Source: Roseivirga sp. 4D4 (GTDB lineage: Bacteria; Bacteroidota; Bacteroidia; Cytophagales; Cyclobacteriaceae). From it: DNA of 64,000 nt. This document shows positions 52,977-64,000 of this stretch, in pieces. The notes below the pieces were generated by a model. The model saw only the letters and a program-made list of their open reading frames with translations, made no database searches and had not been told where the DNA came from. Position 1 is the stretch's first letter, and each line of letters starts with the position of its first letter. The position numbers were made by a program, and so were the translations under genes. The stretch covers positions 2,773,001 to 2,837,000 of the forward strand of contig NZ_MDGP01000001.1 in NCBI RefSeq assembly GCF_001747095.1, in the 5' to 3' direction.

Positions 52977-54002
52977 CTAGGGGTGCTTCTTTTCAGACTT
53001 CAACGCCTTTATCTCAGCCGATTGCTTTTTGACAGTCTTTTCCAGTTCAATCATATACAAAGTCAACTCCTCAACCTTCTCCAATAATTTTAACTGCATA
53101 TCTCCTACATCCTGACCGTTGGTCTCGACTTCCTTGGCACTGGGAATGTTGGGTAGGTGTGAGTTCTTTTTGATAAAAAGCTCCACTTCCGACAGGCTTC
53201 TTAACTCATAAGAGGGATTGAATACATAATCGGGAACGGAACCTGGCGTAGCGGTAACTTTTACTTTTTTGGATTCGATATCATCCTCCACTATCACCTT
53301 TTGAGTAAAACGACTAGTTCCATTGACATCCAGCTTAAAAGCAGGATCATTCGTGCCAATTCCAACCTGATTGTTATTGTCAACCAAAATGGACGCTCCC
53401 ACCAAATTACCATCCCCAGAGACCAGTGCATTTGACAAATTATTCCCAATAAAGGCATCATCAATTAGATATGTGGCAATCGTGGCATATTCAGCCTGAT
53501 GATCTTCAGATTGCATTACTTCATAAGCTATGTGATTAGGTTCAAGATTAGAGGTTGTCGAAGTTCCTGAACCTCTAAAAATTGCCGCGTAGGGCCGTCT
53601 GGAACCGGCATCCAATCCACCTCCAAGCTTAAAAAGACCCAATCTTCTCGCTGCATTTTTCAAATTCTCAGTGACATTGTTTTCCCAAGCATCATAAGAA
53701 GCGATCATTCCTATTTGACCCCTGGTTAACTTGTTAAGGGCTTCGGCCAGATTGTTAGCGTCAGTCGAACTACCGTATGTATCGTATTTAACAGTTGAAA
53801 TATGGGCGTGTGTTGAAGCATTTAGAACTGTTAGCGTTAGACCTCTACCACCAACGGCATAATTTGTCCCTCCTACCTTTACTACACGTGATTGGCTGTA
53901 ATTATAACCTGTGCCTCTAACGTATACGGAAGAGGTGACCTGTGCCATAGATTCAAAAACCGAGAATAGAAGGATTACTGAAAGAAATACTGATCTAATC
54001 AT
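52977..54002 (-). CDS. Secreted ILEI/FAM3-like domain protein with tail-fibre-like C-terminus
   Basis: 341 residues with a signal peptide (to about 20, SMAQ). Residues about 45-130 ([71 protein letters not shown]) follow the ILEI/FAM3 pattern known from animal interleukin-like proteins and some bacteria. Residues about 215-341 ([43 protein letters not shown], then a coiled coil) are the tail-fibre/S74-like stalk ending found in many Bacteroidota surface proteins, without a clear peptidase dyad. It is the last of the minus-strand genes before the repeats at 52.6 kb. Confidence 0.72.
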
Positions 54003-54058: not shown

Positions 54059-55354
54059 CTACTTATCCTTTTTCAAGTCAAAGCCTAATCGCATGACCCA
54101 GGCCTGATCATTCGGGCTTTGGGTAGCATCGAAGAAGAGGTCGTAGAATAGGCCGAAGTTCATTTGAATCTTCTTGGCGATCGTGAACTTCTTGCCAATG
54201 CCCAACAAAGCGGTTTTCACCCATTGTTCTCCCAACTGATTATCATTGAGATCTTCCGTCCGCAGCTTGGTGACTTCGTAGTTGGCTTGTAGGTAAAAGG
54301 ATTTGTAAAGAGTATGTCGATAAAAGGCTCGGAAGCCAGTGGCTTGGTCCCGGGTTCTAACCACTTTGGCTTTCTCCAGAAAAACCCTGGTACCGCCTGA
54401 TACCCCAATGGCTGATTTGAGTCCCAAAGGATAGGTCAAACTCAAAGACAAATCGGCAGAGACGGGTTCTTGGCGATTGACTTGAAGATTGCCTCCAAGA
54501 ATGATCCTCTGCAAAAAGGGTTTGTCTTTATGTGGGTTGTATCGTTTAGGTGCATCTTCCAGACTTTCAAGGCTTGGAAACTTTTGTTTGGCCTCGGTGA
54601 TCTTCGTCTGGGCCTGGTCAAATTTCTCTTGCAAGGTGGTCTCGCCAATCTTCTTGAACTCTTCGGCTTTGGCTTCTAGTTTTTCTTTGACAAAGTCATT
54701 GGTTTGGAATTGACCCATATCATCGCGATAGCCTTCTGGTAAGGGTTTGTAGGCTTTCATCTTTTCGGCCTGTTCTTTCAGTAATTGGGCCTGGGGCAGG
54801 TTGGTCACTTCTTCTAAAAGTTTGTCTTCCCACCCATCGAACTGAGATTTATATTCTTCAAAAGAACCCTTCAGGTCAACCACCTGCTTGTTCAGTTTCT
54901 TGATTTCAGAAACATCCAGCATCTCTACCAATTGATCTTTGTCCTTTAAAAGTCCCTGCATTTGCTTGAGTTCCTCAAGTTTTTCCACACTTTCTCGGAT
55001 CTTATCGGCCACGGGAAGTTTCTCCGGGGTTTCTTTCAGGTCAGCCAGCAGGTCTTGCTTAAGGGTTTGAAGGTAATTGGTTACGCTGTCTTTTGCTTCT
55101 CCTTGAATGGCTTCCTTTTTAGCGGCCATTGCGCTGACCAGCGAATCTACCTTGTCTACCGGCAAATCGGGGTAGAGTTCACTGACACTTTTCCGCAAGC
55201 GCTTTGAGAGTTTGTCTATTTCTTTCTGAACCTTTTTATTGGCCTTTTCCAGTGATTGTGTGCTGATTTCCAGCGATTCGTCCTGTAATGACTCTTGTGC
55301 AAAGGCGGGTGAAGTAAGTAAGCAGCAAATGAAAAAAATCAGGAGGTTTCGCAT
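54059..55354 (-). CDS. Coiled-coil protein with C-terminal outer-membrane barrel-like domain
   Basis: 431 residues with a signal peptide (to about 19, AFAQ). Residues 25-280 are long amphipathic helices full of Lys, Glu and Leu heptads (KKVQKEIDKLSKRLRK, VEKLEELKQMQGLLKDKDQL). Residues about 290-431 are beta strands (IILGGNLQVNRQEP, DLSLSLTYPLGL, FYLQANYEVTKLR) finishing with VMRLGFDL. A periplasmic coiled coil attached to a barrel of about eight strands would bridge to the outer membrane. It lies in the RHS locus, separated from the TPR gene by the repeat region. Confidence 0.7.
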   Translation of the reverse strand: MRNLLIFFICCLLTSPAFAQESLQDESLEISTQSLEKANKKVQKEIDKLSKRLRKSVSELYPDLPVDKVDSLVSAMAAKKEAIQGEAKDSVTNYLQTLKQDLLADLKETPEKLPVADKIRESVEKLEELKQMQGLLKDKDQLVEMLDVSEIKKLNKQVVDLKGSFEEYKSQFDGWEDKLLEEVTNLPQAQLLKEQAEKMKAYKPLPEGYRDDMGQFQTNDFVKEKLEAKAEEFKKIGETTLQEKFDQAQTKITEAKQKFPSLESLEDAPKRYNPHKDKPFLQRIILGGNLQVNRQEPVSADLSLSLTYPLGLKSAIGVSGGTRVFLEKAKVVRTRDQATGFRAFYRHTLYKSFYLQANYEVTKLRTEDLNDNQLGEQWVKTALLGIGKKFTIAKKIQMNFGLFYDLFFDATQSPNDQAWVMRLGFDLKKDK

Positions 55355-55566
55355 TAATTAAATATGGCAGAAAAAGACAGATTTATCAAAGATTATTTAC
55401 AAAAATATATGAATGGTAAAACCATAACGTATCGTCATTCTGGGGTTAGGCCTGAACCTCCTAATCACTAACGTCATTCCGATCCCGATTCATCGGGAGA
55501 AGGAATCTGCCCATTGCCTGACGTGATAATTAGATTTCACCCTGTACCTCTCGACAGGTAGACCCT

Positions 55567-55706
55567 AACTGGTTCGCACTTGCAGTGCGGACCTATTTTA
55601 GGATATACAATTATTACACTTCAAGTGTAACATAAGACCAGTACTCACCACAGGCCTGCCTGTCGGCAGACAGGTGAGCACTAGGCTGTATGTGAGGACC
55701 AGGGGG
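55567..55706. repeat. Direct repeat A (140 bp), copy 1
   Basis: It begins AACTGGTTCGCACTT and ends GTGAGGACCAGGGGG. It matches 56025-56144 almost base for base, apart from a 20-base inverted repeat CCTGCCTGTCGGCAGACAGG that is present only here, and a few changes in a TGCAGTGCG/TATAGTGCG hairpin arm. Confidence 0.85.
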
Positions 55707-55761
55707 CGTATCGTCATTCCGGATTCAGTCCGGAATCTCCTCATTGCTTTATGGGTTAACT

Positions 55762-55816
55762 AGATTTCTCCCTTTGTCTGCCGGCAGGCAGGAACTACAT
55801 CCAGTGCTGTTGTATC
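55762..55816. repeat. Direct repeat B, copy 1
   Basis: AGATTTCTC to GTTGTATC; the shared core is GGAACTACATCCAGTGCTGT. Its partner is at 55932-55985. Confidence 0.8.
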
Positions 55817-55860
55817 CTTCCCTGTCTGTTAGCAAGGAAGAACAATAAGATAAAACAGAT

Positions 55861-55889
55861 CCGTCTGACCGCTTGAAGCGGTCGGACGG
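55861..55889. repeat. CGTCTGACCGCTT hairpin, copy 3
   Basis: CCGTCTGACCGCTT and AAGCGGTCGGACGG form a 14-bp stem including one T-G pair; same family as 52657 and 52889. Confidence 0.7.
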
Positions 55890-55931
55890 CTTTCTCATTT
55901 TTAATGCAAAGTCTGACTTGCTGGGTGGTTA

Positions 55932-55985
55932 AGATTTCTCTCTACGCCTGCCAAAGACAGGAACTACATCCAGTGCTGTTGTATC
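55932..55985. repeat. Direct repeat B, copy 2
   Basis: Matches 55762-55816; differences are clustered in the Cys-rich-looking GCCTGCC/TCTGCCGGC hairpin part. Confidence 0.8.
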
Positions 55986-56024
55986 TACACTCTGCCGACA
56001 GGCAGGAGCTGTGTCCATTAGTCG

Positions 56025-56144
56025 AACTGGTTCGCACTTATAGTGCGGACCTATTTTAGGATATACAATTATTACACTTCAAGTGTAACATAAGACCAGT
56101 ACTCACTGCAAGCGAGCACTAGGCAGTATGTGAGGACCAGGGGG
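56025..56144. repeat. Direct repeat A (120 bp), copy 2
   Basis: See 55567-55706. Here the segment before GAGCACTAGGC is TGCAAGC in place of the longer palindrome, so this copy is 20 bases shorter. Confidence 0.85.
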
Positions 56145-56196
56145 AACTACACTTAGATTCGATTCTGAATTTAAATTATCATACCTGATAATTGAT

Positions 56197-56216
56197 CCTG
56201 CCTGTCGGCAGACAGG
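56197..56216. repeat. 20-base palindrome CCTGCCTGTCGGCAGACAGG
   Basis: Identical to 55655-55674. Related shorter forms are found at about 55777-55792 (TCTGCCGGCAGGCAGG), 55991-56007 (TCTGCCGACAGGCAGGA) and 24947-24960. Confidence 0.7.
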
Positions 56217-56434
56217 CGCACTTAGAATGAAAAAGGGCTTTTAAATACGTTATAATAACTCTTCTCAACAGCTTTGGCACCTATGTACCTACCAAAAACA
56301 AAAGAAGCTGATCCTAAATCAGCCTCTATTATCTCTATTCTAATCTTTTTAGCAAAACCAGATAATTGATCGTACTACCGCTTATTTATTATTTGGCTAA
56401 TGGTTTGTCTAAGCTGGTGAGATGATTAATTGGG

Positions 56435-56974
56435 CTACTCAACTTGACTTTCAATGGAGTCACAATTCTGCTTTATTCTTTCATATTTATCCAAAAAAGC
56501 AGAGTCGTACTCAACTAAATATCTCGCATCCTTCATAGCAAGGTCACAGTCTTTAAATTGCATAAAACAATAGGCACGCCACTCTCTCGCATTAATATGA
56601 TCTTTGTCATACTCATTTAAAACTCTTGAAAAAGTGAGTTGTGCCCTATTAAAATCACCCTGACCATACAGGATTTTTCCCATATTAAATAAGTACTCCT
56701 GAACATGATGAGATGCAGTATCAGCTAGATTTTTAAGAAAGTCAATTGCAACTGACTCTTGATCAATCAATAAAAGTGAGTCTATTTTCCGAACATTAAC
56801 ATAGTACTCAGCCAGTTGTTCTCCTGACTTACTTTGAATTGGTTGTTCTCTCAGCTTCTCAAATTCCTCTAAGATGTTAATAGGTCTTGTTTGCCTAAAA
56901 TAAATGAAAGCCATTATCAGACCACAAGCCCCACCGACTAAAATGATTTTGAACACCTTCTTATCCAAGTTCAT
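56435..56974 (-). CDS. TPR-type membrane-anchored protein paired with the RHS gene
   Basis: 179 residues. A basic start and one hydrophobic helix (about 7-25) anchor the protein; TPR-like helix pairs follow (VQEYLFNMGKILYGQGDFNRAQLTFSRV, AREWRAYCFMQFKDCDLAMK). Its ATG overlaps the RHS stop codon (TGATG), so it is translated after it. This position, right after a variable RHS C-terminus, is where immunity or accessory proteins of polymorphic toxins are found. TPR immunity proteins are rare, so immunity is only a hypothesis. Confidence 0.75.
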   Translation of the reverse strand: MNLDKKVFKIILVGGACGLIMAFIYFRQTRPINILEEFEKLREQPIQSKSGEQLAEYYVNVRKIDSLLLIDQESVAIDFLKNLADTASHHVQEYLFNMGKILYGQGDFNRAQLTFSRVLNEYDKDHINAREWRAYCFMQFKDCDLAMKDARYLVEYDSAFLDKYERIKQNCDSIESQVE

Positions 56975-59900
56975 CAGTTATCATTTTTATCATCATCTTT
57001 CACAGAATTCCATACTTTCTCACCATTCTTACGCACTATTTCATCACCACCATCGTCTCCTCTTAATACATAATTAGCGATTTTATATAAATAATACTCA
57101 ACTATGATAGCCCTTGCATTATCAGGTAAATTATTAACATCCTTACCAAAATCTATCTTTCCTGCTTCAAACGCACTTTGCACATCTGAAATAGCCCTGA
57201 GAGCAAAGTCAGTATCTCCTCTTATACCAGCCAGATCAGTGGCATAGTTATTCCTCTCAACTTCTGAGTAAGCCATCGCAGCAGCTTGCAAAAGGCCAAG
57301 ACCTCTAAAAACATTACGACCACCTCTGGAAGCCCCGGGGTTTAAACTTATTCCTCTTGGCTTATATCTTTGATCAGGAACACCTTGTTTGTTCTTTTCA
57401 ACACCAATCCTTAAAGTAAAATTATTCTCAACTGGCTTCATAGCACCCTCCATGTTGAGATTTACTTCTGGCCTCCTACTCGTGCCTGATGGAACTGGAG
57501 TAATAGCACTTTCAAAGCTTCTGACTCTATTATCTGCACCTATGGAATTACTTCCCCAATTTCTGCTATCTTGATTTACCGAAGCAATAATTCTTTGAGT
57601 AGTATTTGTCAGGTTACTATAATCAATACTCACTGCTTGATTAGTAATAAAAACATGTGCGCTTTTTGAACTTAGGTACTCCAAACCTTCTAGGTCTAGA
57701 CCATCAACTACTCGGTTTTCTGCAAATGCATATGGAGAATTATAGACATAGCTCTCTGCCAATGGATCAACGGAAATGAACCTTCCTAAACTTGGGTCAC
57801 TCCTTCGATACTTGAATTCATACCAACCTAAATCAAAACTAGTCTCCTTTTCCTGTCCTTGGAAAGTATTAAAAGTATTCGGCTTACTTAAAGGCGCAGT
57901 ACTAGAGAGTGCATTAATATTCATCCCAAAAGGATAGTAATGATCTTCTTGCATGATTTTACCCTTGGTATGGGTGATCCTTAGGTCATCGAAAAACACG
58001 TCAAAACTTGTATTGCTCTCGTTAGAGACATACACATAAAGATAGCCTTTTTCACTGATGGTTTTGCTGCTGTTTACAGCCACATGTGTGTTACTTGTAC
58101 CACTTACCTGCGTAAAACCGGCATCTAAGTAGTTAAAGTCCTGATCAAAGAGGATGTAATTCAAGTAAGCCCTTGGGCTGGCTGAACTACCGTCACCTCC
58201 TACAAAGATGGCTGCACTATTGGTATTCACGGCACTTTGGATTACGGTACCATCCACCGTGGTTGGTGCGGCACCTGAGACCATAGAAATAATGCTTGCC
58301 AATACATTGGTGTTTGAAATGGCACCATTGTCTGAGTAGGTACCGGTATGGTAAGCAAAAGCTTCCATGGCTACACTATCGCCTGGCATAACCTGCATTA
58401 ATTTGCCTGGCCCTACCTGTCTATTGGTATCATTACCTCTAAGACGTACCACCTGATCTTCATTGGTAGTATTGTCTTGGGTATAGTTGGCCGTTGCATT
58501 GGTTTCGCGCAGCGTCACATTTAAGAAAGTACTTTCCTCAAATACAGAATGTGCAGTTTCCATGGTAGCCAGATAAACGACCTCCTCATGCTCTGTGGTA
58601 AAGGTGACACGACTATTACCCAAATGGTCTTTGAGGTAATAATCATAGATATAACCTCCACCATCTTTAGGTCTTAGTCTACCTTCGGCATGTGCGATCT
58701 GCTGCAATTCATCATCTTCATAGATAAAGCCACCACTGTAGTCGGTCACCTTTATGGTGCCATTGTCATTGGTGCTCTTCGCCAACTTAATACCTGCTGC
58801 ATCATAGGTATAGGTGATGCTACGACCTCCCGTAAAGGTTACTGTCTCCGGTAGGTTCAAATGATTATAGCTGATATCGGTGATGTCCTTATTGGCATCA
58901 CTGATCATATTGCCATTGTCATCATAGGCATAGTCATTACCGGAGGTATTACCATCTTTGAAACCATCTGTTGAATTACCACTATCCGTAACGGCTTGCA
59001 ACTGGTTGCCCACATAGCTATAGCTCAAGTGATCCATCGCTAGTGTCGTATTGGTAGCATATCTCCTGAGGCTCTCGATATTACCATTCAGGTCATAGGT
59101 CAAATTATTGACATCGAAAGTTGTTTTATCAGACCAGCTGCTTTCCTTTTCATGATAATCTGCACCGGTCAATCGGTTTAGGTTATCATAACTGTAGGCA
59201 TAGCCACTTTGCAACTGTCCTCCACTGGCGATATTGCTCCACTTTGCTGCACTGATATTGCCATTAAACATTGCCGTGCTAGTAATACCCGATAGGGTAT
59301 TGTTATAAGCGAGTTCCATCCCGAAATAATCGTTCTCATTGTCGGAAAGGTCCGCATCATTGATACGTTCTAACCAGCCTCTGATATTGTATCGGTAGTC
59401 TACGGATTGCTCGAAGTTCAAGCCCCCATCAGTTGAGTGAAGCTTTTTGTCGATCAATTCACCCAAGGCGTTGTACTCATTTTTCACCATGGTAATGGCT
59501 GGATCGCTGTCCACTTTATGTGTGGCTTCCAACAATCTACTGGCATGGTCATAAGTGAAGGTTTCAGCGATTACTACATCGGCCGAAACGGTACCATCAT
59601 CATGGGTAGTCTTCGTTTCCAACACGCGACCCACAAAGTCATACTTGCTTGTGCTGCGATCGGTACCTCCTAAGTGACTATCGGCAACGGTTTGTAATAC
59701 ACGATAGCGATCGTCATAGTAAACCTCACTTTTCAACCAGGTATTCGTACCATCCAATACTTTCGTTTTGCTACCCACTACCTGTCCTTTGACAGCGGTA
59801 TTGTTTGTTCCGTTACCCAATTCTGGTGTATAGCTAAAGGTGAAGTCTGACGGCAGGTCATTATAGTCGTCATAATAAGTAGCCGTGAGATAATCATTGA

Positions 59901-62900
59901 CATTGGTTGTACTTGGGAAAGCATTGTTGGTATACCCGAGTACACTTGATCCTATCTCTTCGTATAGGTTGCTATAACCATCAACCACTGCTTGCATGGC
60001 CGCTTGGCTAGAAGCAGGATTGATATAAAAACCTGTTAATACCGGTCGGCTGAATACATCATACTTAGTAAAGGTCCATTGGTTATTGAGTCTTTGCTCT
60101 GCGTCTTGCGTAGCCACTAGTCTGTCTAACTTGTCATAGACCATATAGACCCAGCCACTGCCCGGCACACGTTTCTCGCTCATGCGGTTACGATCGTCAT
60201 ACTTGTACTGGAACGCCCATTGGCTAAGGAAATCTCCACCCATAGTGAATGGAACAATCTCGGCTCCAGGATCAAGCGTAACTCCGGGATCTACTGTCAC
60301 CGATGCGCCATCGGCATACATATATGAGCCTCCAGTATAGTTGGAAGTGGTGACGGTATAGTCCGTTCCAACCAAGGAATATCCTGAAGGAACAAGGTTA
60401 AGGCTATTAGCAGCTATATCCTTATTCGCTTCTGGAGGCAGTACCACGCGCAAGTTGCCATATTCATCATAGACATATTGGGTTTCTGCATATGGATTGT
60501 TGGTATCTCCGGTAGACACTCTTTTGACTATTACTTGACCCTTTTTGTCTGTATACTCTACTGTCTCGTTACCCTCTTCGTCTTGTGCCACCGAAATGGA
60601 CAACTCGCCAGCATCGTAATAACCACTAGGATTAATAGATGCCGGGCTATTGGCGACCATTTCGTAGAACCTTACGTCATTGGCTGGGTTGATCTCGTAA
60701 GCCATGCGCACTACCTTATCTGTACTGGACCCTTCAACGGGTTGCCATGCAGCACCAGGCGCACCTTGTTTTAGGGTCCGGCCCAATGGAGAGTTCTCGA
60801 GAATGGACTCTGCATATGGAGCTACATCCTGGGCTACACTCGATGTCCCCTGATAGAACTGATACTGCGGACTGACTGTATAACCAGAAATCGATGTACC
60901 GGTAGGGTTATGTTGGAATAAGCCTGCATTATCGGTCACCACAAATGGAAGATAGCTTTTGGTTTGTCTTCCGTATTTGTCGTAAGTCATGGACTGAACG
61001 ATGTTGGACTTATCCGGTGCGGCTTCATAGCCGACCACTTGTACGCCTCTACCGAGACCATCTGCATACTGAATGCTAATGCTTCGGTTGTTGCTGGTCA
61101 ATGTGTCTATCTCGCTTTGGCTATCAACCCCCGCAATAAGCACCGAAGTAGACATTACATAGTTTTCGTCTCCCGGATCGAATCCATTTGGAGCCGTTAC
61201 TGTAATCGGAGCTGTGGTATAACTTCCACTGACACCCGATTTGGTAATGGTCAGGGTATAGCTTCCTGTTGAGGTAGCTGTATACGTGCTTCCCGAACCT
61301 ACTGTAGTAGAGCCTTTCTTCCAGGTGTAGGTGGTATAAGTATCATCTGCCGATAGTAAGAGTTCGTCTCCAACATCGATAATGGTGCTTCCTACAACCT
61401 GTATATCTGCTTCTGCAGTAGTCACCGTATGTGTATCAGTGGTGCTATTACAGTTGCCTGATGCGGTCACAGATATGGTGGCATCTCCGATAAAGTCAGC
61501 ATCCCAGGTGACGATACCCGAACTATTGATGGTTCCTGCGCTGACCGGAATGATGGACCATGTATAGGTACTCGCATTGCTTGCCGAGGCATTAAAGTCT
61601 GTAGTATTGCTACCCGGCCAGCGTGCGCTGAGACCTCCCGTAATGGTGACATCACCCACAATTGGATGAACAACTACTGAAATATTATCTGTTGTGGTAT
61701 TACAGTTACCAGCACCTGAGGCTACAACCGTAATCGTAGCGGTGCCATGGAAGCTTGAGTCCCAAACCAGATCGCCATTGGCTGTATCGATAGTACCTGC
61801 GCTGGATGGCGATACTGACCAGGTATAATTACTTGCATTGACAGCAGTAGCATCAAAATTGGTAAAGCCTTCTCCTTGGCATCGATCGGCATTGTCTCCT
61901 GTAATGGTCACTGCCTCAATAGTCGGATTCACCGTAATGGTTGTACTGGCATTGGTAGTATTACAATTCCCCGGACCAGATGCGACTACCGAGATATTGG
62001 CCGTTCCCTGGAAGTTAGCATCCCAGTTGATTAGTCCTGTACTAGAATTGATAGTGGTACTACTGGATGGTGTGGTTGAAATCGTCCAACTATAATTGGT
62101 GGCGTTAGCAGCAGTAGCTCCAAGGTCTGTGGTACCTCCGCCTTCACACCTGTCAGCAGTATTTCCAGTAATAGAAACCGCTCCGATAGTCGGATTCACT
62201 GTCACCGTTACATTATCTGTAGTTGTATTACAGCTGCCTGTTCCTGAAGCTATCACAGTGATGGTTGCCTGGCCGTGGAATCCTGGGTTCCAAGTTACTG
62301 TTCCCGAAGAGTTGATACTTCCTGCTGCTGGCGTAATTGACCAGCTATAACTGGTGGCATTGGCTGCTGTTGCATTATAGTCAACTGGACTATCTCCCTG
62401 ACACTTGTCTGAAGTGTTGCCTGAGATAGATACCGCACCCACTAGTTGATTCACAGTTACTTTCACAATATTGCTGGAAAGTGATGTTCCACAAGTAGTT
62501 GCTATTCTTTTATACCAAGTATCCGCACTAAGCACACCTGGGGTATAGGTTAATCCTGTGCCTACATTAGTCCAGCTGTTATTACCATTAGGAGATGATT
62601 GCCATTGGTAGGTAATGGTATTACCACCAGTCGCACTGGCTGTATTGGTCAGGGTTGCTGGCAGCTGATCGGCACATACGGTTTGGGCTCCTCCGATGGT
62701 TCCCGCTACCAGTGGATCTAATACTGTGACTTTGACTGAAGAGGTATACTTTGTTTGTCCACAAGAGACCACCTCTCTCCTATACCATCTATCGGCCGTC
62801 ATACCTCCTGGCGGATTATAAGTACTGCTGTTAGCACCACTAATGTCTGTCCAGCTACTATTATTGGTTGAGATTTGCCATTGATAGGAGTAACCTCCCT

Positions 62901-64000
62901 GACCATTAGAAGGTGGAGTAGCATTACCCAAAGTTGAAGGATCTCCATTATAACACACCGTTTGTGCATTATTGATGGCACCTGCATTCAGTTGTGGAAG
63001 CACCGTGACTTTCACCGAGGAAGTGTACTTTGTTTGCCCACAAGAAATTACCCTTCTGCGGTACCATCTATCGGCTGTTAAACCTGATGGTGGGTTATAA
63101 GTACTGCTAGTGGCACCACTGATATTGCTCCAGCTACTGTTATTCGTTGAAATTTGCCACTGATAGGAGTAGCCACTCAGTCCATTGGTCGGAGGAGTGG
63201 CTTCACCCAAAGTTGATGGGTCCCCATTATAGCAAACCGTTTGAGCATTGTTGATGGCTCCGGCATTTAACTGTGGAAGCACCGTAATCTTAATATTAGC
63301 TGTGTAAGCTGTCTGTCCACAAGATTGTACTCTTCTTCGGTACCATCTGCTAGCTGTTAAACCTGAAGGCGGGTTGTAAGTGCTGCTCGTTGCACCGCTG
63401 ATGTTAGTCCAACCACTAGAGCCATTGGTAGAATATTGCCACTGGTATGAATAGCCCTCAGTACTGTTAGAAGGAGAGGTGGCGTTCCCTAAAATACCTG
63501 GGTCGCCATTATAGCAGATCGTTTCTGCTCCATTAATGGCACCTGCATTTAGTGGTGCCAAAACAGTTACTTTCACTGCTGATGTCTGCTTGGTTTGTCC
63601 ACAAGACTGTACCTGTCTGCGATACCATCTATCCGATGTTAAACCTGATGGTGGGTTATAAGTACTGCTCACAGCACCACCAATATTAGTCCAACCGCTA
63701 GAACCGTTGTTGGAATACTGCCATTGATATATATAGCCTCCCTGGCCGTTGGTCGGAGGAGTAGCGTTACCCAATGTCGAAGGGTCACCATTGTAACAAA
63801 CTGTTTGAGCATTATTGATAGCTCCGGCTGTTAAAGCTGGGAGTACAGTCACCTTGATACTTGATGTATACTTCGTTTGACCACATGAAATTACCCTTCT
63901 GCGGTACCATCTATTACTTGTCAAACCTGAGGGTGGGTTATAGCTTGTACCTGTGGCACCGCTAATATTAGTCCAGTTATTCGAACCATTGGTCGAGTAT
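56974..64000 (-). CDS. Giant RHS-repeat protein with Ig/PKD-like repeats (5' end outside window)
   Basis: At least 2340 residues; the frame is open to the right edge, and the apparent start at 63924 is only a TTG within a repeat. From N to C: tandem Ig-like units of about 93-94 residues with a CYNGDPSTLG start and SCGQTKYT end (62.66-64 kb); four PKD-like units of about 87 residues (61.4-62.45 kb); one more Ig-like domain; a DUF6443-type start of the RHS part (ISIQYADGLGRGVQVV, about 61.1 kb); YD repeats; the RHS core (YYPFGMN, GRFISVDPLAE, near 57.77-57.94 kb); then a tip of about 240 residues after DGLDLEGLEY. It is secreted, probably by the type IX system, though the signal regions are not visible. 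Confidence 0.9.
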   Translation of the reverse strand, partial: YSTNGSNNWTNISGATGTSYNPPSGLTSNRWYRRRVISCGQTKYTSSIKVTVLPALTAGAINNAQTVCYNGDPSTLGNATPPTNGQGGYIYQWQYSNNGSSGWTNIGGAVSSTYNPPSGLTSDRWYRRQVQSCGQTKQTSAVKVTVLAPLNAGAINGAETICYNGDPGILGNATSPSNSTEGYSYQWQYSTNGSSGWTNISGATSSTYNPPSGLTASRWYRRRVQSCGQTAYTANIKITVLPQLNAGAINNAQTVCYNGDPSTLGEATPPTNGLSGYSYQWQISTNNSSWSNISGATSSTYNPPSGLTADRWYRRRVISCGQTKYTSSVKVTVLPQLNAGAINNAQTVCYNGDPSTLGNATPPSNGQGGYSYQWQISTNNSSWTDISGANSSTYNPPGGMTADRWYRREVVSCGQTKYTSSVKVTVLDPLVAGTIGGAQTVCADQLPATLTNTASATGGNTITYQWQSSPNGNNSWTNVGTGLTYTPGVLSADTWYKRIATTCGTSLSSNIVKVTVNQLVGAVSISGNTSDKCQGDSPVDYNATAANATSYSWSITPAAGSINSSGTVTWNPGFHGQATITVIASGTGSCNTTTDNVTVTVNPTIGAVSITGNTADRCEGGGTTDLGATAANATNYSWTISTTPSSSTTINSSTGLINWDANFQGTANISVVASGPGNCNTTNASTTITVNPTIEAVTITGDNADRCQGEGFTNFDATAVNASNYTWSVSPSSAGTIDTANGDLVWDSSFHGTATITVVASGAGNCNTTTDNISVVVHPIVGDVTITGGLSARWPGSNTTDFNASASNASTYTWSIIPVSAGTINSSGIVTWDADFIGDATISVTASGNCNSTTDTHTVTTAEADIQVVGSTIIDVGDELLLSADDTYTTYTWKKGSTTVGSGSTYTATSTGSYTLTITKSGVSGSYTTAPITVTAPNGFDPGDENYVMSTSVLIAGVDSQSEIDTLTSNNRSISIQYADGLGRGVQVVGYEAAPDKSNIVQSMTYDKYGRQTKSYLPFVVTDNAGLFQHNPTGTSISGYTVSPQYQFYQGTSSVAQDVAPYAESILENSPLGRTLKQGAPGAAWQPVEGSSTDKVVRMAYEINPANDVRFYEMVANSPASINPSGYYDAGELSISVAQDEEGNETVEYTDKKGQVIVKRVSTGDTNNPYAETQYVYDEYGNLRVVLPPEANKDIAANSLNLVPSGYSLVGTDYTVTTSNYTGGSYMYADGASVTVDPGVTLDPGAEIVPFTMGGDFLSQWAFQYKYDDRNRMSEKRVPGSGWVYMVYDKLDRLVATQDAEQRLNNQWTFTKYDVFSRPVLTGFYINPASSQAAMQAVVDGYSNLYEEIGSSVLGYTNNAFPSTTNVNDYLTATYYDDYNDLPSDFTFSYTPELGNGTNNTAVKGQVVGSKTKVLDGTNTWLKSEVYYDDRYRVLQTVADSHLGGTDRSTSKYDFVGRVLETKTTHDDGTVSADVVIAETFTYDHASRLLEATHKVDSDPAITMVKNEYNALGELIDKKLHSTDGGLNFEQSVDYRYNIRGWLERINDADLSDNENDYFGMELAYNNTLSGITSTAMFNGNISAAKWSNIASGGQLQSGYAYSYDNLNRLTGADYHEKESSWSDKTTFDVNNLTYDLNGNIESLRRYATNTTLAMDHLSYSYVGNQLQAVTDSGNSTDGFKDGNTSGNDYAYDDNGNMISDANKDITDISYNHLNLPETVTFTGGRSITYTYDAAGIKLAKSTNDNGTIKVTDYSGGFIYEDDELQQIAHAEGRLRPKDGGGYIYDYYLKDHLGNSRVTFTTEHEEVVYLATMETAHSVFEESTFLNVTLRETNATANYTQDNTTNEDQVVRLRGNDTNRQVGPGKLMQVMPGDSVAMEAFAYHTGTYSDNGAISNTNVLASIISMVSGAAPTTVDGTVIQSAVNTNSAAIFVGGDGSSASPRAYLNYILFDQDFNYLDAGFTQVSGTSNTHVAVNSSKTISEKGYLYVYVSNESNTSFDVFFDDLRITHTKGKIMQEDHYYPFGMNINALSSTAPLSKPNTFNTFQGQEKETSFDLGWYEFKYRRSDPSLGRFISVDPLAESYVYNSPYAFAENRVVDGLDLEGLEYLSSKSAHVFITNQAVSIDYSNLTNTTQRIIASVNQDSRNWGSNSIGADNRVRSFESAITPVPSGTSRRPEVNLNMEGAMKPVENNFTLRIGVEKNKQGVPDQRYKPRGISLNPGASRGGRNVFRGLGLLQAAAMAYSEVERNNYATDLAGIRGDTDFALRAISDVQSAFEAGKIDFGKDVNNLPDNARAIIVEYYLYKIANYVLRGDDGGDEIVRKNGEKVWNSVKDDDKNDN
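61400..62450 (-). repeat. Four PKD-like repeats in the RHS protein
   Basis: Units start with VSISGNTSDKCQG, VSITGNTADRCEG, VTITGDNADRCQG and VTITGGLSARWPG, and end in (S/N)CNTT. Units 1-3 keep the Cys pair; unit 4 has RW in place of the first Cys. At the DNA level units begin at about 62447, 62193, 61922 and 61660. Confidence 0.85.
62660..64000 (-). repeat. Near-identical Ig-like tandem repeats (about 282 bp)
   Basis: Four full units with CYNGDPSTLG- or CYNGDPGILG-type starts (about 62.95, 63.22, 63.51 and 63.80 kb), a diverged unit with CADQLPATLTN at about 62.68 kb, and the end of another at the window edge. Long stretches (GGCGGGTTATAAGTGCTGCT-like boundaries) are shared between copies. 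The array continues to the right. Confidence 0.88.

Follow-up and report, generated by a model that had tools for sequence, protein, structure and literature searches.

A candidate toxin tip and its putative TPR immunity protein at the variable end of a Roseivirga RHS operon

The stretch of Roseivirga sp. 4D4 DNA analysed here (the window, 64,000 nucleotides) carries a large RHS gene that ends in a C-terminal tip of no recognisable kind, and a short TPR gene starts inside its stop codon. What does the tip do, and is the TPR protein its partner? An earlier note, made from the letters alone, had raised the possibility of a new tip/partner pair and had left a toxic or an anchoring role as its inference. 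In this study, the order, overlap and domains that it described were all found, on the minus strand. We consider it probable that the tip is a polymorphic toxin and the TPR protein its immunity protein, and that both lie at the variable end of a Bacteroidota operon for an exported RHS protein. The RHS protein would be exported and would deliver its swappable C-terminal tip to neighbouring bacteria, which the tip would harm. The TPR protein would be made in step with the RHS protein via the overlapping start codon and, as a membrane-anchored solenoid in the periplasm, would neutralise the tip and thereby keep the producer and its kin alive.

The RHS gene (56974..64000, minus strand) is represented in the window by the C-terminal 2,316 or more residues of its product; the window ORF (56974..63924) lies in a frame that stays open to the window end, and the gene extends to about position 2838043 of genome contig C1. 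In the genome, 2,697 codons (stop included) make up the open frame, at C1 2829974-2838064, and the protein has 2,689 aa counted from the first ATG. It is large and probably exported, and is built from a signal-like N-terminus, Ig-like repeats (both judged by eye, the latter with a Pfam match to SCAB-Ig at 6.9e-7), DUF6443 (Pfam, 6.9e-33), a YD/RHS core and the tip. The RHS-associated core model TIGR03696 matched the full protein above its cut-off (6.3e-11) and the window part at 1e-9, and the core end is marked by GRFISVDPLAE (57754-57786) and DGLDLEGLEY (57676-57705), both on the minus strand. Pfam and NCBIfam contain models for T9SS C-terminal sorting domains, and neither library gave such a match on the full RHS protein. 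A PAAR domain was likewise not found in the full 2,689-aa protein with Pfam, and no match named TANFOR was obtained with Pfam or NCBIfam, which may or may not include a TANFOR model.

The gene behind the tip (56435..56974, minus strand) encodes a 179-aa candidate immunity protein with a hydrophobic anchor and TPR-like repeats. Its ATG and the RHS TGA have one base in common (TGATG; junction sequence CTGATGAAC). A single N-terminal hydrophobic segment is preceded by lysines, and from this charge pattern the TPR part would face the periplasm if the N-terminus stays inside. The TPR assignment itself comes from weak matches at about residues 72-158, which stay below the curated cut-offs (TPR_6, 8.8e-5; MamA, 8.6e-6), and from weak TPR matches in a PDB search. 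None of the known immunity families (Imm/SUKH-type) was found for the 179-aa protein, its better matches being of TPR type.

The tip follows DGLDLEG and comprises 236 aa (56977-57684, minus strand); it is the candidate toxin domain. It had been described as rich in Asn, Arg and Gly, an enrichment that is present but mild (Asn 9.9%, Gly 9.1% and Arg 7.4% of the last 243 residues of the RHS protein); the marker ALRAISDVQSAFE lies near its end (57166-57204, minus strand). The earlier statement that the tip cannot be matched to any known toxin was borne out. HMM and structure searches of the tip end, which had been suggested as a check, returned no family and no structure at E<=0.001: there was no NCBIfam and no PDB match, nothing among 5.8 billion proteins in two search designs, and for both the tip and its homologue in genome G327, described below, no Pfam family up to E 10 and no PHROG up to E 1. 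The tip was also absent from the plasmids searched and had no relative in 98 other genomes. A two-row profile found its own genome only among 395 genomes of the phylum and G327 only among the 15 genomes of the G327 genus. In a species-contig collection, the single sequence found nothing (12 stretches) and the two-row alignment gave one match (98 stretches). Judged by its sequence, the tip is close to an orphan. Structure models had a mean pLDDT of 34 from the single sequence and of 44 from two rows; in the two-row model, residues 161-230 include a helical part that reaches about 64-78. In a Foldseek search of the tip model against the PDB the best match had an E-value of 1.2, and therefore no fold is claimed. 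A membrane-active helical C-terminal half was considered, and the models were too poor to judge it; the best 19-residue hydropathy was 1.44 in the G327 relative and 0.73 in the own tip.

A search of 390 family genomes yielded one real relative of the tip, the end of an RHS protein in G327. At E<=0.1 matches were obtained in eight genomes besides the own one and only G327 was retained; of the other seven, five contain internal stops and two are short frames (77 and 158 aa). The G327 match sits in a 3,160-codon open frame and turned out to be itself an RHS tip, whose sequence is also present in JANQLQ010000319.1. End to end, the two tips share about 24% identity, and BLASTP aligned them with 22% identity over 250 columns (5e-6). 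The E-value of G327 in the per-genome search, 0.044, is not significant by itself. We accepted the homology because of the tip position, the full-length alignment, a score reached by none of 1000 shuffles and the gap to other tips (with the first ten residues omitted, a score of 92 for the G327 tip vs 47 for the best of 37 others). The stretch best conserved between both tips, KNxxGVPDQRxK (KNKQGVPDQRYK; 57361..57396, minus strand), is where an active or binding site of the tip would most plausibly lie.

Relatives of the RHS core were detected in 13 of the 19 genus genomes, own included (E<=1e-10). They provided 43 RHS ends together with G327, of which four were dropped because they were truncated at a stretch border or had tips of <=100 aa; the 39 kept comprise G327 and 38 complete genus tips, own included, from 13 genomes. 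RHS ends lacking a collected locus (e.g. G007:C62, G009:C131) were excluded, so that all repertoire numbers are lower bounds. The tips vary on a conserved core: none of the other 37 genus tips is similar to the own tip at E<=1e-3. Seven Pfam families, mostly toxins, have one member each among the 38 tips (Ntox43, Toxin-JAB1, DUF6973, Tox-MPTase2, WHH, Colicin-DNase and Peptidase_M23; two families may fall on the same tip).

The genes behind these tips follow a common layout. For 32 of the 38 tips, own included, a co-directional ORF starts between -60 and +30 nt from the RHS stop; two more (L027 and the main RHS gene of L070) qualify via another start or a shorter ORF, and for four (L020, L054, L073 and L074) neither reading gives a close next gene. 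Since overlapping or abutting next genes are common across the genus, the TGATG overlap is not special to the pair studied here. According to a crude hydropathy rule, which is not a trained predictor, 22 of the 32 next genes carry a signal or transmembrane segment, and several of those scored as soluble resemble lipoproteins by eye. This proportion suggests that many genus tips meet their antidotes in the envelope. GC content is lower than in the core in all 32 next genes and in 30 of the 38 tips; at the own locus it falls from 42.0% in the core to 38.0% in the tip and 35.4% in the TPR gene.

With this repertoire the possibility can be weighed that the tip is not toxic at all but serves adhesion or structure, or is a decayed toxin, with the TPR protein acting as an anchor or chaperone of the RHS protein. 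TPR domains frequently serve as scaffolds, and the tip searches found no toxin family, fold or catalytic motif. However, a general anchor or chaperone should recur, and when the next ORFs of other RHS tips (34 in all) were compared with the TPR protein, not one reached E<=1e-3, which makes the anchoring role raised in the earlier note unlikely as a general role. Moreover, a TPR relative at E<=1e-6 occurs in only three of the 19 genus genomes (G000, G003 and G005), and other tips on related cores do match known toxin families. We regard a non-toxic tip as very improbable.

Short RHS-end ORFs with their own tips and next genes, orphan cassettes, were seen in G013, G016 and G004. Loci L050 and L051 (G016) and L052 (G004) contain rows of short RHS ends whose tips and next genes differ. 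Behind the own pair no orphan cassette was detected; when 55355-56434 was searched by tblastn with the collected tips and next genes, the only match was weak (E 0.079). This intergenic region contains an 89-nt repeat in two copies, 458 nt apart and 94% identical, a 20-nt palindrome four times (<=3 mismatches) and several terminator-like hairpins. Behind RHS genes at L049 (7377-10892), L053 (6587) and L071 (9936) a recurring gene was observed, with an MSKxKLN-like start and LEGLDR, followed at L049 by two ORFs that by eye resemble tyrosine recombinases. It looks like a mobile element occupying the same place.

The sister species G013 allows the same locus to be compared directly. The surrounding genes are conserved to different degrees, namely the 431-aa gene (87.9% identity), the 384-aa gene (79.6%), a flanking gene (71.6%), the 364-aa gene (54.1%), the ILEI gene (51.5%) and the 1,138-aa gene (50.8%), and the RHS proteins are 42.3% identical. 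The tip and next genes of G013 at this locus have no similarity to the own ones. On the far side the block is bordered by a 163-nt stretch (56217..56379, minus strand) that is 79.8% identical in G013 and marks where the swapped segment ends on the right; in either genome it follows the main block of RHS gene, tip and next gene. It contains, behind the TPR gene, an intrinsic-terminator-like hairpin (56303..56327, minus strand) with 11 pairs and a T-rich tail, which has nearly the same sequence in G013. Thus, a differing tip and next gene lie between conserved flanks and a conserved terminator, and the exchanged part, with tip and next gene in it, is delimited by the RHS core and the terminator. 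The 163-nt stretch of G013 is followed by an orphan cassette. A short repeat, GATCAATTATCWGGT, borders the swapped segment in the own genome and in G013 (window 56183-56197 and 56357-56371; L070 5573, 5727 and 5752), and a scan of 19 stretches and the window found exact copies at the window locus (two) and in G013 (three) and none elsewhere. We do not claim it as a recombination site: the segment holds the terminator, and exact copies are confined to these two places.

Does the next gene travel with the tip? Six tip groups recur in the genus, and in four of them the next genes are related as well. In L024, L075 and L070 tips and next genes are related (the tip match of L024 and L075 spans 46 residues only) and the next genes are MORN-like lipoproteins by eye. 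The same holds for tips and next genes of L027 and L033, and related next genes were found for L016 and L052 (1.1e-5) and for L051 and L070 (1.6e-12). In L032 and L054 the tips recur and the search for a relative of the next gene was negative, and in L051 and L071 the next genes are unmatched, the tip match covering only 30 residues. Outside the genus, G327 and the own locus form a further tip pair without a common next gene. As far as these sequences tell, the next gene usually travels with its tip in the genus, in four of six recurring groups. No second case combines this tip with a TPR relative, and the own pairing therefore rests on position, the genus pattern and the differing slot content in G013. 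The comparison of relatives suggested in the earlier note accordingly had two outcomes. Tip and TPR gene are not constant, as both are replaced in G013 while the flanks are kept, and the proposal of a new pair gains from this swapped slot and from the unmatched, variable tip; the pair itself was seen once.

The distribution of the TPR gene bears on another explanation, namely that the tip is toxic and the TPR gene is not its antidote, being a passenger or a general envelope protein, with immunity encoded elsewhere or lost. A large protein search with the TPR protein returned only a near-identical 173-aa entry. Full-length relatives are rare rather than widespread, occurring in the own genome and three others of the 390 family genomes at E<=1e-6 (G003, G005 and G294; 26-30% identity), and among 291 genomes of the order a TPR profile matched 19 at E<=1e-8, full length only in the own genome and G003 and partially in 17. 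No RHS gene was noted near the three relatives in the stretches examined (the ORFs of L047 and L048 being partly covered), and L046-L048 contain no RHS ends. G327, which has a related tip, shows only partial TPR matches (nine, best 6.5e-8), and the ORF behind its tip is convergent. Both points favour a passenger. Against it, the one-base overlap with the RHS gene and the conserved terminator behind make the TPR gene the last gene of the RHS unit, and other short genes occupy the same slot in relatives. Stand-alone immunity genes are moreover a known pattern: the orphan immunity genes called rAID, as far as described in the parts of PMC12247911 used here, contain SUKH domains and are located in arrays associated with recombinases. 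Genes of the rAID kind may account for the three TPR relatives that occur on their own, although no such array was noticed among the ORFs around them, in an inspection that was not a dedicated search. On this evidence an unrelated TPR gene behind a toxic tip seems unlikely to us, and TPR immunity is the reading we retain.

Across the genus, one neighbouring gene is usually found near RHS genes. Its 431-aa product (54059..55354, minus strand) has a signal-like N-terminus, a coiled-coil-like middle and a barrel-like C-terminus, all judged by eye. It has no Pfam family above cut-off, no NCBIfam family and no PDB relative at E<=0.1. Counting the own one, it has 19 matches in 12 of the 19 genus genomes, 16 of them <=10 kb from an RHS core match; the others are in G009:C30 (near the contig end), G011:C70 and G007:C15, where a partial relative of the 1,138-aa YD gene adjoins. 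We regard the protein, with its barrel judged by eye, as a candidate for a role in export or anchoring. Next to it a 341-aa protein (52977..54002, minus strand) combines an ILEI domain (PF15711, 2.3e-10) with a C-terminal domain present at 20 places in the genome; similar genes also lie on the opposite side of the RHS operon.

It is tempting to speculate that the operon as a whole serves as a dedicated apparatus for RHS delivery in Bacteroidota. Shaft or lectin-like proteins would act together with a split YD-repeat cage, made of the 1,138-aa gene product and the RHS protein. The swappable tip/immunity slot would be bounded by the core and the conserved terminator, and the coiled-coil/outer-membrane-barrel-like protein (54059-55354) would export or anchor. 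The cargo would act on the cell envelope, which would account for the resemblance of most antidotes to lipoproteins or membrane proteins, and the tip would found a new class of envelope toxins blocked by a periplasmic TPR solenoid. We hold this extension to be tentative and, taken as a whole, doubtful.

With this study the Bacteroidota RHS repertoire gains a hitherto unrecognised candidate toxin/immunity pair, and TPR proteins emerge as possible antidotes. From the genus comparison come a delimited slot for tip and antidote, four groups in which tip and next gene travel together, and a conserved accessory gene, by which Bacteroidota RHS export without a PAAR adaptor becomes testable by gene removal.

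In general, Rhs effectors of the T6SS carry a PAAR domain and an RHS core with a variable toxin at its end, and the immunity gene lies behind. The protein described here resembles them in RHS core, variable tip and gene behind, known in this case from sequence; in contrast to them, it has no PAAR match and instead has a signal-like N-terminus and Ig-like repeats. Another reference system is provided by polymorphic toxins with RHS repeats and a Sec/T2SS-type route, as covered in the sections of PMC3482391 considered. Shared features are a conserved core, a variable C-terminal domain and a short gene directly behind, and further orphan tip cassettes in relatives and known toxin domains on sister tips (PMC3482391). 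However, the own tip falls outside all families searched, and in those sections TPR repeats are part of toxin proteins or are joined to immunity domains, and do not form a stand-alone anchored immunity protein (PMC3482391). Among the titles and abstracts surveyed, none dealt with a TPR immunity protein behind an RHS tip; subscription journals are mostly outside this coverage, and absence in print is not claimed. TANFOR polymorphic toxins and the Bacteroidetes pair BaCT/BaCTic are a further reference, in which a C-terminal tip was shown to be toxic and the product of the downstream gene to be its immunity protein, according to the part of PMC7073777 consulted. The carrier differs, being RHS/DUF6443 without a match named TANFOR in our case, and BaCT was compared by description and not by sequence (PMC7073777). 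Both nevertheless are large exported Bacteroidota proteins with a tip of no known kind and a gene directly downstream (PMC7073777). In summary, the tip and the TPR protein are most likely a new pair of a well-known type of weapon, in which the TPR protein would serve as the antidote.
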